Source: Planctomycetota bacterium (GTDB taxonomy: Bacteria; Planctomycetota; Planctomycetia; Pirellulales; Thermoguttaceae). From it: a DNA stretch of 32,721 nt. Below, piece after piece: positions 2,169 through 31,611 of this stretch; the stretch's first letter is position 1; each line of letters begins with the position of its first letter. The translations under genes were made by a program, and so were the position numbers. The notes beneath the pieces are model-generated. The model searched no databases. It worked only from the letters and a program-made list of their open reading frames with translations, and was not told the origin of the DNA. The DNA is taken from assembly GCA_021784975.1 (NCBI GenBank), contig JAJYGU010000128.1, positions 1-32,721 of the forward strand, given 5' to 3'.

Positions 2169-2720
2169 ATGGAAGTTCGCGTCGGAGAGGCCACCCTCGA
2201 ACTGTGCCAAGGCGACATCACGCTCCAGCAGGTGGATAGCATCGTCAACGCCGCCAATAGCCGGTTGGCGGGCGGTGGCGGGGTGGATGGCGCCATCCAT
2301 CGCCGCGGGGGGCCGGCCATTATGCAGGAGACCGACGCCCGCTACACACAAGGATGTCCCACGGGCTCGGCGGTCATCTCCACCGCCGGCAACCTGCCCG
2401 CCAGGTATGTGATCCACGCGGTCGGCCCAGTGTGGAGCGGGGGGCAGCGCGGCGAGGCCGAGCAGCTCGCCGGCGCCTATCGCCGTAGTCTCGAATTGGC
2501 GGTCGAACACGATTGCCAGAGCATCGCCCTGCCGGCCCTGAGCACCGGGGCCTACCGCTATCCGATGGACCAGGCTGCCCGAATGGCCCTCTCCACGGCC
2601 GTCGAGTTTCTCAAGACGCACGGCCGGCCGAAGCTGGTTCGCTTCGTCCTCTTCGACGCCGCTGCCCACGGCGCCTTCACGGCAGCGCTGGAATCACTTG
2701 CTGAGGAGTTCCGCCTGTAG
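2169..2720 (+). CDS. Macro-domain protein (O-acetyl-ADP-ribose deacetylase family)
   Basis: MEVRVGEATLELCQGDITLQQVDSIVNAANSRLAGGGGVDGAIHRRGGPAIMQE...; NAAN and GGGGVDGAIH motifs. Confidence 0.93.
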   Translation: MEVRVGEATLELCQGDITLQQVDSIVNAANSRLAGGGGVDGAIHRRGGPAIMQETDARYTQGCPTGSAVISTAGNLPARYVIHAVGPVWSGGQRGEAEQLAGAYRRSLELAVEHDCQSIALPALSTGAYRYPMDQAARMALSTAVEFLKTHGRPKLVRFVLFDAAAHGAFTAALESLAEEFRL

Positions 2721-2898
2721 CGGTTATTCACAAAGCCCGCTCGGTAGCGGCCGGGCAAGGTCCGCTTGTGACGTTGAATTTCCGGCCGCTCTTTTCGACC
2801 GGGCAAGATGGCCGACGTATCTGGAGGGAGTGTCTCGGAGCCCAGATCCGAGGCCGCGGCGGCTGATTCCATGAGACCGTGCCCGTCAGGACAAGCCG

Positions 2899-4062
2899 AT
2901 GAGATCTTGTCGAAGTCGCGCGTGGATGGTGTTCGGGGTTTTGCTGCTGGGCAGTTGTCAACGAGCGGCGCCGCCGGCGGCGCCGCTGGTGCAAGCCGTC
3001 GACGTGGCGCTGCCCATCCAGCGAACGGTGGTGGACCATGAGGAGTTTACCGGACGGACGGACGCCGTCAGCCGAGTCGAAATCCGCGCGCGGGTTTCGG
3101 GCTACTTGATCAAGGTCAATTTCAAGGACGGCGACATCGTCAAGAAGGATGACTTGCTCTACGAAATCGATCCCCGTCCCTTCCAGGCCGTCTTGGACGA
3201 CGCCAAGGGCACGCTCGAACGATTAGTGGCCCAAAAGAAGCTCCTCGATATTCAGGTCGACCGCTATCGCGGGCTGGCCGCCAAGGGGGCCGCCAGCCAG
3301 CAGGACCTCGATCAATACCTGGCCCAGCAGGCCGAGAACGTCGGCTCGCAAAACTCCGCCAAGGCGCAGATCGAGCGGGCCCAACTGAATCTGGGCTTCA
3401 CCACCGTCGCCTCTCCGATCGCCGGCAAGATCAGCCGCACCCTCTTAACCGTCGGAAATCTGGTCAACGCCGACGCGACCTTGCTGACCACGGTGATGTC
3501 GATCGACCCGATCTACGCCTACTTTGACATTGACGAACCCACCCTGCTGCGAGTCCTCAAGATGAAACGCGAGGGGCTGCTGCCGCAGCGGATCGGCCTG
3601 GTCGAGGTGTCGATGGGCCTGGCCGACGACGTGCACCATGCCTTTCCGCTAAAAGGCGTGCTCGACTTCGCCAACAACACCGTCGATCCGCAAACGGGCA
3701 CGATCCTGGTCCGCGGCACCTTCAAAAATCCTTATGAAATGCCGACTAAGCCGCCGCTCATGCTGCCCGGCATGTTCGTCCGCGTGCGTCTGGACATAGG
3801 GCTGCCACACAAGGCCTTCTTGGTGACGGAACGGGCCCTTGGCACGGACCAGGGACAAAAGTACGTGTTCGTAGTCGGCAAGGACCACAAGGTCGCCTAT
3901 CGCGGCATAACCCTGGGGCAAGTGTTCGACGGCCTGCAAGCCATCGAAAAGGGGCTCAACGCCGACGACCGGGTGGTGGTCGACGGCCTGCAACGCATCC
4001 GGCCGGGCATGGAGGTCAAGGCCGAGCCGAAGGACATGGCCAGCCTGGCCGGGCCGCAATGA
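2899..4062 (+). CDS. RND efflux periplasmic adaptor (MFP/HlyD family)
   Basis: 387 aa; lipoprotein-like N-terminus (VLLLGSCQ), VEIRARVSGYL, DGDIVKKDDLLYEIDPRPFQA, TVASPIAGKISR. Confidence 0.93.
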   Translation: MRSCRSRAWMVFGVLLLGSCQRAAPPAAPLVQAVDVALPIQRTVVDHEEFTGRTDAVSRVEIRARVSGYLIKVNFKDGDIVKKDDLLYEIDPRPFQAVLDDAKGTLERLVAQKKLLDIQVDRYRGLAAKGAASQQDLDQYLAQQAENVGSQNSAKAQIERAQLNLGFTTVASPIAGKISRTLLTVGNLVNADATLLTTVMSIDPIYAYFDIDEPTLLRVLKMKREGLLPQRIGLVEVSMGLADDVHHAFPLKGVLDFANNTVDPQTGTILVRGTFKNPYEMPTKPPLMLPGMFVRVRLDIGLPHKAFLVTERALGTDQGQKYVFVVGKDHKVAYRGITLGQVFDGLQAIEKGLNADDRVVVDGLQRIRPGMEVKAEPKDMASLAGPQ

Positions 4063-27399: not shown

Positions 27400-28161
27400 T
27401 TATTGCGACCTCCTTTTTCTCGGCCGCAGCCCCGTGCGAAGCGGAAATTCCTTCGACTCGGTTCGGGCAGAGTTCAGGTATCGGGTGATTTTGGCCGCGA
27501 TGTCGGGGTGCTCGGCGGCCACGTCGTGGGCCTCGGCAATGTCGGTACGGAGGTCGTAGAGAGCGATGGGCGCGGTCGGATTCTCGCGGACGGCCTTCCA
27601 CGGCCCCATACGTGCCGCTTGGGCTGAAGCCGGCCGCTCGTGCAACTCCCAGGACAATGCGTGGGCCTGGTTGAGGTAGCCGAAGAAGCTGTCGAAGCCT
27701 TGGCGGGTGGGAACGCCGCTCGAGCCCGGCTCGCCGAGCCCCCACTTTCCGATCAGGCCAGTGACATAGCCGGCCCGATGCAACACTTCGGCGACGGTCA
27801 TGTCCTGCGGCTCGAGCGGCACGTCGGCGTTGCCGCGAATGCGGGCGTGGCCGGTGTGCAGCCCGGTCACCAGCGCGCAGCGCGACGGCGCACACACCGT
27901 GCTGCCGGCGTAGCATTCGGTACATAGCATCCCCTCGCTGGCCATGCGGTCGATGGCCGGTGTTCGGATCTGCTTCTGACCGTAGCAGCCCAGGTCGCCG
28001 TAGCCCAGGTCATCGGCCAGAATGAAGATGATGTTCGGCCGTTCCGCAGGCTCGGCCGCCCATAATGGCCCGATGCCCAGCCCCATTGTCACCGCGACAA
28101 CCGAGACAGCCAATAAGTCAGTCCGGAGTTTCTTGATAGCACGTTCCTCCCGCGGCTTCAA
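27400..28161 (-). CDS. Sulfatase, internally shortened (253 aa)
   Basis: MKPREERAIKKLRTD...AAEPAERPNIIFILADDLGYGDLGCYG; FGly motif VCAPSRCALVTG; C-terminal RMGPWKAVRENPTAPIALYDLRTDIAEAHDVAAEHPDIAAKI; central sulfatase region missing. Confidence 0.8.
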   Translation of the reverse strand: MKPREERAIKKLRTDLLAVSVVAVTMGLGIGPLWAAEPAERPNIIFILADDLGYGDLGCYGQKQIRTPAIDRMASEGMLCTECYAGSTVCAPSRCALVTGLHTGHARIRGNADVPLEPQDMTVAEVLHRAGYVTGLIGKWGLGEPGSSGVPTRQGFDSFFGYLNQAHALSWELHERPASAQAARMGPWKAVRENPTAPIALYDLRTDIAEAHDVAAEHPDIAAKITRYLNSARTESKEFPLRTGLRPRKRRSQ

Positions 28162-28221: not shown

Positions 28222-28262
28222 TGCACTTTGCACTTTGCACTTTGCACTTTGCATTTTGCATT
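28222..28262. repeat. Heptad repeat (TTTGCAC/TTTGCAT)
   Basis: tgcactttgcactttgcactttgcactttgcattttgcattg, period 7. Confidence 0.85.
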
Positions 28263-28444
28263 GTTCGTTTTCATCGCGAAAGCGCGAAAGGGCGAAACCG
28301 CGAAAAGAGCGGGGTCGAAAATTGCCCTCTGTGGCGTTCCGACGCCGGAAGAAGGGCCGTTGTTGCCCGCCGAAGGAACGCCGCCGAGGGCGTTCCCTCC
28401 GGAACATTGGCGCGGTAATATGGTTCGCGTCGTGGGAGGTAAGT

Positions 28445-28496
28445 GTACTCCTCACGCTCCGCGTGAGGAAAGCATCACGCGGCGCGTGACGAGTAC
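28445..28496. repeat. Palindromic repeat predicted to form a three-way junction, upstream of sulfatase fusion
   Basis: GTACTC (28445-28450) / GAGTAC (28491-28496) enclosing CTCACGC-tcc-GCGTGAG and TCACGC-ggc-GCGTGA. Confidence 0.75.
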
Positions 28497-28530
28497 AAAC
28501 GTATTGAATCGCCACAGGAGGTGTTCGCCG

Positions 28531-31428
28531 ATGCCAAGCCATAAGCCGTCGCCGCGTATGTTCTTCACCGCCGCTATTTTTGGCGGGATGTTGATGTTGA
28601 CGTCCATTTCGCCCGCCTTGCCCGCCGCGCCGGCCCGGCGGCCTAACGTGCTGCTGATTATTACCGACCAGCAACGGGCCGACATGCTCAGTTGCGCGGG
28701 CAACCGCTACGTGAAAACGCCGGCGGTGGACAGCCTGGCCGCCTCGGGCGTCCGATTTGGCATGGCCTATTGTGCCAATCCGGTCTGCTCGCCGTCTCGC
28801 TTCAGCATGATGACCGGGGTGATGCCCAGCCGGATCGGCATGGATCGCAACATGAACATCCCGGCGAGCCCGGCGGGCGACAGGCTGCTCGAATGTGCCT
28901 TGGGCCGCGTGTTCCGCGCCGCCGGCTATCAGACGGTCTACGGCGGCAAGACCCATTTGCCCATGCGCGACATCAGGGCGTACGGCTTCGACGACCTCAC
29001 CCGCAATGAGCGGGAGGGCCTGGCCGAGACCTGCACCCGCTTTCTGGCTCGGCCGCACGATCGCCCCTTCCTGTTGGTGGCCTCCTTCATCAATCCGCAC
29101 GACATCTGCTACATGGCGATTAACGCCGCGGCCCGCGGCATGGGTGGGCCGCCGGCGGTCAGGGCCGGCGCCGCCGAAGCCGAAGCCTTGTCGGAGGCCA
29201 TGCAGTGGCCGCCGGGAGTCTCGCGCGAGGAATTTTTCAGCCGGCTTTGTCCCCCGCTGCCGGCAAATCATGAGATTCCTGAAGACGAACCGCCGGCGGT
29301 GCGGCAAGGCGACTGGCGATCTTTTCGGCAGTATGTCGAAAAGCATTGGACCGCGGACGACTGGCGGCTGCACCGCTGGACCTACGCCCGGCTGGTCGAG
29401 CGGGCCGACCGGCAGATCGGCCAGGTGCTGGCGGCCCTCCGCTCGGCCGGCCTGGAAGACAAGACCCTGGTGGTATTCACCAGCGATCACGGCGACATGG
29501 ACGCCTCGCACAAGCTGGAGCACAAGTCGATGCCTTACGAGGAGGCGATGCACGTGCCGCTGGTGGTCAGTTGGAAGGGAGTAACTCCGGCCGGCCGGCT
29601 CGACACCCGGCACCTGGTCTCCACCGGCTTGGACCTGATCCCCACCCTTTGCGATTTTGCCGGCGTGCCTATCCCCAAATCGCTCAAGGGGCGAAGCGTC
29701 AAGCCGCTGGCGATTGGCAAGGATGCCCCGCGGCCGTGGCGGGATGATCTGGTCATCGAAAACGAGTCCTCGATAATCTTGCGCGGCCGGCGGTTCAAGT
29801 ATGCCGCCTACGACCGCGGCCAGCCCCGCGAACTCCTCCTCGATCTGCAGAACGACCCCGGCGAGATGCGCAACCTGGCGACCGACCCGAAGTACCGCGA
29901 TGTGCTGGTCGAGCAGCGGGCGAGGCTGCAAGAGTGGTATCGACAGCACGGCGAAACGCTCGACGCGAAGTTTGTCGTGACCGGCGTCGACAGGGGACTG
30001 TCCCGATTTTCGCGGCGCGGCGGATCTTCGGACACTAACACGGTTGATCGCCGCGAAAATGGGACTGTCCCCCTTGCGTCGCGTCGAGCGCCGCGGAAGC
30101 CCAACGTGGTCTTCGTCTTTGCCGACCAGTGGCGGGCCCAGGCCCTCGGCTGCGCGGGCGATCCGAATGCCAAAACGCCCCATCTCGACCGGCTGGCCGC
30201 TCAGGGGGTCATGCTTACCACCGCCGTCTCCACCTGCCCGGTCTGTTCGCCGTATCGGGCCAGCCTCATGACGGGCCGCTACCCAACCACGCACGGCGTT
30301 TTTGTCAACGACGTGCGGTTGAACCAGGAGGCGGTGTCGCTGGCCCAGGCCTTCAAGCAGGCTGGCTACCAGACGGCCTATATCGGCAAGTGGCATCTCG
30401 ATGGCGACGGCCGATCCAACTTCATCCCCACCGACCGCCGGCAAGGCTTCGATTTCTGGCGCGTCTGCGAGTGTACCCATGATTACAACCACTCCTTATA
30501 CTTCGGTGACGACCCCGAAAGACACTTTTGGAAGGGCTACGACGCCCTGGCTCAAACCGAAGAAGCCCGGACCTACATCCGCGCCCATCGGCAGGGGCCG
30601 TTCCTGTTGATGCTTTCCTGGGGGCCGCCGCACAATCCCTATGAAACCGCCCCGGAGCGGTTTCGCCGCATGTTCAAGGCTGAGTCCCTCCAACTCCGCC
30701 CTAATGTGCCGCCAGAGGTCCAAGCGGCCACCCGCCGCGATCTGGCCGGCTACTATGCCCATTGCGCAGCCCTCGACGAATGTGTGGGCAAGATCATGGA
30801 AACGCTCAACGAGTGCCACCTGGCGGACGATACCATCCTGGTGTTTACCGCCGACCACGGCGACATGCTCGGCTCGCATGGCCAGGTCCGCAAGCAGCGC
30901 CCGTGGGACGAATCCATCTTGGTGCCGTTTCTGCTGCGATGGCCCAATGGCCTGAAACGCGCGGCCCATCGGCTTTCGTCGCCCTTCTGCACGCCGGACA
31001 TCATGCCCACGCTCTTGGGGCTCTGCGGCATTCCGAGTCCCGCCACGGTGGAGGGCGCCGACCGTTCTGCCTGGCTGCGCGAGCAGGAACCCGACGCCGA
31101 TCGGCCGGTGTTGATCGAGTGCGTCACCCCGTTCGGCGAGTGGACTCGCCGCCAAGGCGGCCGGGAGTATCGCGGCCTGCGGACCAGGCAGTATACCTTC
31201 GTCCGCTCCCGGACCGGGCCGTGGCTCCTGTTCGATAATCAGGCCGATCCGTACCAGGAGCACAATCTCGTCGGCAACCCGCGATACGCGGCTTTGCAGA
31301 AGCAACTTGACTCGATGCTCAGCCAGGAACTCAAGCGCCGTCACGACGACTTCGCGCCGGGCCGGGTGTACCTGGACAAATGGGGTTACAAAACCGACGC
31401 AAGCGGAACGGTACGATATCAGCCGTAG
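28531..31428 (+). CDS. Two-domain sulfatase fusion (tandem sulfatase domains in one ORF)
   Basis: From 28531: MPSHKPSPRMFFTAAIFGGMLMLTSISPALPAAPARRPNVLLIITDQQRADML...CSPSRFSMMTG...TSDHGDM...; second domain KPNVVFVFADQWRAQALGCAGD...CSPYRASLMTGRYP...TADHGDMLGSHG... Confidence 0.9.
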   Translation: MPSHKPSPRMFFTAAIFGGMLMLTSISPALPAAPARRPNVLLIITDQQRADMLSCAGNRYVKTPAVDSLAASGVRFGMAYCANPVCSPSRFSMMTGVMPSRIGMDRNMNIPASPAGDRLLECALGRVFRAAGYQTVYGGKTHLPMRDIRAYGFDDLTRNEREGLAETCTRFLARPHDRPFLLVASFINPHDICYMAINAAARGMGGPPAVRAGAAEAEALSEAMQWPPGVSREEFFSRLCPPLPANHEIPEDEPPAVRQGDWRSFRQYVEKHWTADDWRLHRWTYARLVERADRQIGQVLAALRSAGLEDKTLVVFTSDHGDMDASHKLEHKSMPYEEAMHVPLVVSWKGVTPAGRLDTRHLVSTGLDLIPTLCDFAGVPIPKSLKGRSVKPLAIGKDAPRPWRDDLVIENESSIILRGRRFKYAAYDRGQPRELLLDLQNDPGEMRNLATDPKYRDVLVEQRARLQEWYRQHGETLDAKFVVTGVDRGLSRFSRRGGSSDTNTVDRRENGTVPLASRRAPRKPNVVFVFADQWRAQALGCAGDPNAKTPHLDRLAAQGVMLTTAVSTCPVCSPYRASLMTGRYPTTHGVFVNDVRLNQEAVSLAQAFKQAGYQTAYIGKWHLDGDGRSNFIPTDRRQGFDFWRVCECTHDYNHSLYFGDDPERHFWKGYDALAQTEEARTYIRAHRQGPFLLMLSWGPPHNPYETAPERFRRMFKAESLQLRPNVPPEVQAATRRDLAGYYAHCAALDECVGKIMETLNECHLADDTILVFTADHGDMLGSHGQVRKQRPWDESILVPFLLRWPNGLKRAAHRLSSPFCTPDIMPTLLGLCGIPSPATVEGADRSAWLREQEPDADRPVLIECVTPFGEWTRRQGGREYRGLRTRQYTFVRSRTGPWLLFDNQADPYQEHNLVGNPRYAALQKQLDSMLSQELKRRHDDFAPGRVYLDKWGYKTDASGTVRYQP
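29991..30075. repeat. Inverted repeat inside sulfatase-fusion coding sequence
   Basis: aggggactgtcccgattttcgcggcg (left, to 30017) versus cgccgcgaaaatgggactgtccccc (right, 30049-30073): inverted copies differing by one base and one 1-nt indel. Confidence 0.85.
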
Positions 31429-31454: not shown

Positions 31455-31482
31455 TTGACAAAAACCCCGATCCTGGTATAGA
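31455..31482 (+). promoter_or_regulatory. Candidate sigma70-type promoter for small RNA
   Basis: TTGACA (31455-31460), 16-nt spacer, TATAGA (31477-31482). Confidence 0.6.
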
Positions 31483-31488
31483 GAGTGC

Positions 31489-31611
31489 GTGTTGCGAGCG
31501 GCCTTGCTGCCCGCGCATAGCCCCGAGGGCCACGGCAGTAGCGCTTCCTTGGCGGAAGTTGATACGACGCTGGGAGCCGTGACCTCGGGGTTTTTTCTGC
31601 GCGGGCCAAGG
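31489..31611 (+). ncRNA. Candidate structured small RNA ending in or containing an intrinsic-terminator-like hairpin
   Basis: Rod: CCCCGAGG/CCTCGGGG then CACGGC/GCCGTG (31521-31590), apical CTTCC/GGAAG; T6 at 31591-31596; outer complement CCTTG(CT)GCCCGCGCA (31502-31517) with TGCGCGGGCCAAGG (31598-31611). Confidence 0.55.

Follow-up and report, generated by a model that had tools for sequence, protein, structure and literature searches.

A REP-like palindrome as the in-frame linker of a two-sulfatase gene in a planctomycete

Introduction

A single open reading frame (ORF) of a Planctomycetota bacterium encodes two sulfatase domains, with an inverted repeat at their boundary. How did two such domains come to lie in one frame, and what part did the repeat play in joining them? 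We addressed these questions in the window, that is, the whole stretch of 32,721 nucleotides that was analysed, and in comparisons with the rest of the genome and with related genomes. Coding palindromes and planctomycete sulfatase fusions are each already known.

Results

One open reading frame encodes two complete sulfatase domains

The fused gene comprises the following parts (window positions, evidence in brackets).

28516-28521, + strand: AGGAGG ribosome-binding sequence ahead of the ATG at 28531 (sequence)
28531-31428, + strand: fused ORF of 965 codons plus stop (translation, Pfam profile matches)
28531-28635, + strand: Sec-like signal peptide of the first sulfatase, MPSHKPSPRMFFTAAIFGGMLMLTSISPALPAAPA (by eye on the translation)
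28636-29985, + strand: sulfatase domain 1 (D1), with CSPSR at 28786-28800 (PF00884 and SGSH_C, conserved active-site residues, own clade)
30094-31425, + strand: sulfatase domain 2 (D2), with CSPYR at 30244-30258 (PF00884, conserved residues, N-terminus comparison, own clade)

A sequence-only reading of this locus had proposed that one ORF carries two full sulfatase domains. This was borne out by the presence of both the CSPSR and CSPYR motifs and by a Pfam profile search, which placed PF00884 in two stretches of the ORF. Both domains show the features of type I sulfatases, namely the sulfatase fold family, the C-x-P-x-R motif and the conserved active-site residues. Residues invariant across relatives include D46, C86, P88, R90, K140, H142, D319, H320 and K332 in D1, and D532, C572, P574, R576, K620, H622, D775, H776 and K788 in D2. 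The phylogenetic tree placed D1 and D2 in two separate, fully supported sulfatase clades. The unprocessed product of the 965 codons has a calculated mass of 108.7 kDa. D2 has neither a start codon nor a signal peptide of its own, and the D1 signal peptide, predicted by eye, is the sole export signal on the fused protein.

Other features were noted on the 5' side of the gene. A sulfatase remnant at 27400-28161 on the reverse strand, in which the N-terminal Pfam positions 1-124 of 301 run straight into a sulfatase-like C terminus, is probably a pseudogene and looks like the product of an internal deletion. A short tandem repeat of CACTTTG units (28223-28262) and a second palindrome-like stretch, CTCACGCTCCGCGTGAG ... 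TCACGCGGCGCGTGA (about 28440-28495), possibly belong to other repeat families.

A palindromic element forms the linker

The seam between the two domains is organized as follows.

29986-30093, + strand: whole D1-D2 linker, consisting of the element and a few codons on either side (comparison with relatives)
29992-30073, + strand: REP-like palindromic element, read as RGLSRFSRRGGSSDTNTVDRRENGTVPL (repeat, fold and family-alignment analyses)
29993-30017, + strand: left arm, GGGGACTGTCCCGATTTTCGCGGCG (inverted-repeat analysis)
30018-30048, + strand: loop of 31 nt between the arms
30049-30072, + strand: right arm, CGCCGCGAAAATGGGACTGTCCCC (inverted-repeat analysis)

Arms and linker peptide were both recovered, in agreement with the earlier description of the boundary as an inverted repeat read in frame. 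The predicted RNA fold of the seam reached -51.3 kcal/mol (z -4.7), and 0 of 200 shuffled sequences were equally stable. The core GGGACTGTCCC is itself an imperfect palindrome and is therefore also seen as a direct repeat, 67 nt apart. Within the window, this core is confined to the seam element.

The element belongs to a dispersed, patchily distributed family

A genome-wide count of the repeat had been set beforehand as a test, and the repeat proved abundant elsewhere: the 4.9 Mb genome contains 592 exact copies of the core, against 1 for a reversed-pattern control. A blastn search with the seam copy gave 102 matches. The aligned copies have in common the left arm, a variable loop and the right arm; a second subtype carries TTTTTGTGGCG. 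The full unit measures roughly 80-90 nt, and shorter forms show a core spacing of 31 or 39. Core counts were patchy across 100 related genomes, with 639, 414, 274, 226 and 208 in some of them and 0-5 in most.

The location of the copies relative to genes was evaluated in a 1.08 Mb sample, with home-made gene calls and on contigs chosen partly for carrying the element. Of the 110 elements that had at least two cores, 51 were outside genes and 13 on gene edges, although the genome is about 82% coding; elements are thus depleted from genes. The remaining 46 were inside called ORFs, either near the ORF end or with one weak side (27 elements) or well inside, with a coding signal on both flanks (19 elements). 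Copies located beyond genes or at their edges were mostly nearer a gene 3' end (26 of 34), at a median distance of 31 nt. The assignment to REP/MITE-type repeats made from the sequence alone is strongly supported by these hundreds of dispersed copies, about half of which are extragenic, typically a short way 3' of a gene, while others are in frame within genes.

As a hairpin-forming short palindrome dispersed in over 100 copies, the element resembles REPs in the broad sense. The GTAG/CGTC tetranucleotide that defines the REP superfamilies of that name is absent from the consensus arms on either strand. Since this tag is lacking and no cognate transposase was found (see below), the palindrome is classified as REP-like in the broad sense only. 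The family is apparently undescribed.

Copies lie in frame inside other genes

Both arms are free of stop codons in all six frames, and genes can therefore accommodate palindrome copies, each adding about 16-35 residues. The same six-frame openness occurred in 6.4% of two-arm shuffles; loops had 4.93 open frames against 4.22 in loop shuffles (sd 0.18), in copies that are related by ancestry. Because of this shared ancestry, we do not claim six-frame openness as an evolved trait.

At the DNA level, in-frame copies backed by homology were found in at least nine genes. These include uvrA, rph (RNase PH), where the copy lies between the two domains, and genes for MmgE/PrpD, an MFS transporter, an FAD oxidase, a GH116 enzyme and cytochromes. 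In the same genome, an NrfD-cytochrome ORF (contig C347, 2260-4350, reverse strand) contains three in-frame copies. Its orthologue in the related genome G033 is one continuous ORF with none of the three inserts, which makes it the cleanest in-gene case. This ORF was considered as a second repeat-made fusion and rejected: because the G033 orthologue is already a single ORF, the copies represent insertions and not a fusion.

The two sulfatases are separate genes in relatives

A survey of 100 related genomes and 80 other loci turned up no D1-D2 fusion besides that of the window. In one locus of Lentisphaerota (L104) and one of Anaerohalosphaeraceae (L119), D1- and D2-family genes are adjacent and arranged as in the window, but they form separate ORFs and lack the repeat. 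Their D1 proteins are distant from that of the window (44% and 42% identity, respectively), and the two pairs could be independent neighbourhoods. No synteny of the window genes was found around the D1 and D2 relatives.

The domain borders were compared with those of relatives. The five closest D1 relatives (L184, L118, L191, L190 and L194) stop 0-4 codons past the residue aligned with V482, whereas the repeat of the window begins 5 codons past V482. Identity between D2 and its nearest relatives is about 70%. Among 13 D2 relatives, 11 have a Sec- or Tat-like signal ahead of the mature domain; the other two are L192, where mature D2 follows a linker from a domain upstream, and L104, which begins with no signal. 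Judged from these alignments, the DNA from the last codons of D1 to mature D2 is replaced by the element and a few codons. L192 itself (genome G030, contig C2, about 2344-3890, reverse strand) lies in an open frame of 1714 codons. This D2-family sulfatase is preceded by an ordinary proline/lysine-rich stretch and represents an independent fusion without the palindrome.

The sequence-only reading had suggested that the repeat removed a stop codon and thereby fused adjacent genes, or was tolerated as a linker. The gene fusion gained support: D1 and D2 are separate in relatives and are not joined there by another linker, the D1 stop is due where the repeat begins, and the D2 start and signal are missing where it ends. 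Two outcomes that would have refuted this reading, a repeat confined to the seam and orthologues all fused by a different linker, were checked for and did not occur. The proposed route fared less well. Stop loss alone cannot give the fusion, because the start and signal peptide of the second gene are also gone; for the same reason, the fusion must have involved deletion or recombination. A causal role of the repeat would be a further step.

Candidate transposases

Genes for Y1 transposases were examined as possible sources of mobility. Neither the 13 Y1_Tnp matches of this genome nor 30 loci from eight relatives yielded a Y1 gene flanked by the palindrome arm (GGGGACTGTCCCGATTTTCG). Some Y1 genes resemble REP-associated transposases, below the NCBIfam cut-off, and several bear their own terminal inverted repeats (TIRs), e.g., AGAAAGGGGGACAGGCGCGCTTAT and AGAAAAGGTGACAGCCACCAAAT. 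The layout of these TIRs is similar to the reverse complement of the right arm, AAGGGGGACAGTCCCATTTTCGCGGCG, and their sequence is not the same. A lone degenerate palindrome copy lies 115 nt upstream of the Y1 gene in L040, whose own TIR differs. The TIR-bearing Y1 genes were therefore rejected as the cognate transposase: they have their own TIRs, several of similar layout (AAAGGGGAC...), and none has the palindrome arm.

REP-associated-like Y1 genes with their own TIRs of 18-24 bp, of the pattern AAAGGGGA..., were observed at L038 and L040 and, in relatives, at L271, L276, L277, L283 and L284, as if several such Y1/TIR families coexist. We infer that the palindrome was probably moved in trans by a transposase of the REP/IS200 type (Y1 HUH).

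Comparison with known systems

Rickettsia palindromic elements (RPE), as presented in a review that cites Ogata et al. 2000 and 2002 (PMC10969869), are palindromic repeats found in frame in unrelated protein genes and translated as extra peptides. The palindrome described here is likewise in frame in unrelated genes, at the level of the DNA sequence. It differs in sequence and host, and in having about 50-90 nt with two cores versus about 150 bp for RPE, and no membership is claimed.

Intragenic REPs have also been reported for the GTAG/CGTC superfamilies, including one in uvrA of the verrucomicrobium O. terrae (PMC3733652). Both systems consist of high-copy short palindromes that lie near gene 3' ends when intergenic and are in some cases intragenic; the GTAG/CGTC REPs are mostly intergenic, their intragenic copies form inserts of 20-30 residues, and uvrA is a target in both. 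In contrast to these REPs, the unit of roughly 80 nt here has two quasi-palindromic cores in direct order within a single large inverted repeat.

Atypical repeats also accompany class 3 TnpA genes, which occur mainly in Planctomycetes and Acidobacteria (PMC6006769). Their high-copy atypical planctomycete hairpins have a CnGA foot, and the left arm here contains CCGA, a short match that could be due to chance; no class 3 gene flanked by the palindrome was found.

Regarding the fusion itself, two unrelated, formerly adjacent sulfatase genes are described as fused into one in planctomycetes P1 and P2 (PMC4807772). The comparison is with that description, in which no seam repeat is reported. No REP copy at a gene-fusion seam was found in the openly licensed literature searched.

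A candidate structured RNA beside the fused gene

Downstream from the fused gene, a second element was detected.

31455-31482, + strand: promoter-like TTGACA-N16-TATAGA ahead of the RNA candidate (sequence)
31484-31604, + strand: candidate structured RNA (fold, covariation, homologues)

The candidate forms two hairpins with conserved CUUCCUUGGCGG and GCUGGGAG, and its 3' end is terminator-like, with a CCUCGGGG stem followed by U residues. Its covariation exceeds both controls, with changes on both sides in 14 of 31 pairs, and the observed values were attained in 0 of 500 shuffles. It is present in 31 of 100 related genomes, as a single copy in all but one, and almost every locus examined has the same cupin and ligA genes downstream of it. 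An Rfam search gave no family above threshold anywhere in the window, the candidate included. This is apparently a new conserved structured RNA and possibly a new family of this order; it may act as a leader or attenuator of cupin-ligA, or as a small RNA.

Discussion

The two-sulfatase fusion with the palindrome as its linker is well supported. We consider it likely that a REP-like copy, probably moved in trans, joined two sulfatase genes that are separate in relatives and so gave rise to an exported double sulfatase. In the order of events that we infer, a copy would first have inserted at the 3' end of D1, where members of this family usually lie. D1 and mature D2 would then have been brought into one frame by a deletion or recombination with an endpoint in the element, possibly involving another copy, the D1 stop and the D2 start and signal peptide being lost at the two borders of the copy. 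The palindrome would thus have mediated the fusion. One double sulfatase would be expressed, active and exported, both halves via the D1 signal peptide. The mobility presumed for the copy would be driven by a transposase. The stage before the fusion was not seen in any close relative examined.

The main alternative is that an ordinary deletion fused the genes first, leaving a short linker, and that the palindrome was inserted later and tolerated. The family often enters existing genes in frame, including the already fused NrfD-cytochrome gene, and most in-gene copies landed in pre-existing genes; repeat-free sulfatase fusions also exist, in G030 and, by the published description, in planctomycetes P1 and P2 (PMC4807772). 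The 100 related genomes and 80 other loci yielded no repeat-free D1-D2 fusion, however, and the copy lies exactly where the D1 stop and the D2 signal peptide are expected, a small target in a gene of 965 codons. We regard a later insertion as rather unlikely.

Much less credible still is an assembly chimera, in which a short-read assembler would have linked two unrelated loci via the repeat. The assembly is a draft of 506 contigs, the repeat is present hundreds of times, and the longest exact stretches shared with other sampled DNA of the genome are 31-32 nt, which a small k-mer could cross. Yet none of the sampled copies shares the loop of the seam copy exactly (the best blastn match reaches 84%), and the element is not clearly more frequent at contig ends (4 of 111) than in random windows (1.6%). 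In addition, the join is in frame without a stop, and L104 and L119 also have genes of these two families side by side.

It is similarly improbable that the hairpin splits the products, D1 ending or being processed near the repeat and D2 being silent or internally started (e.g., at GTG 30106): the RNA hairpin at the seam is very stable and GGAAG lies shortly 5' of this in-frame GTG, but a start there drops N525, invariant in 25 aligned sequences, D2 retains its invariant residues and its similarity to its nearest relatives, and copies with the same hairpin persist in housekeeping genes such as uvrA and rph.

Coding repeats have so far been known mainly from Rickettsia and from scattered REP cases. 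The family linked here to the double sulfatase is dense, with about one in six sampled copies well inside genes, housekeeping genes included. Some caution is needed in annotation, as peptides such as GTVPF, GLSPL, GDSPIF and RRENGTVP in planctomycete proteins can be encoded by the element and need not be conserved domains. In the double sulfatase, a palindrome lies exactly at the seam of a gene fusion, a case that can be tested, and the patchy presence of the family across the order gives many natural comparisons of before and after. More speculatively, the stop-free, high-copy palindrome might serve as a ready-made read-through linker. Copies between or inside neighbouring genes might then allow in-frame gene fusion through deletions or recombination from copy to copy, and the family might be a recurrent source of new fused and decorated proteins in these planctomycetes.
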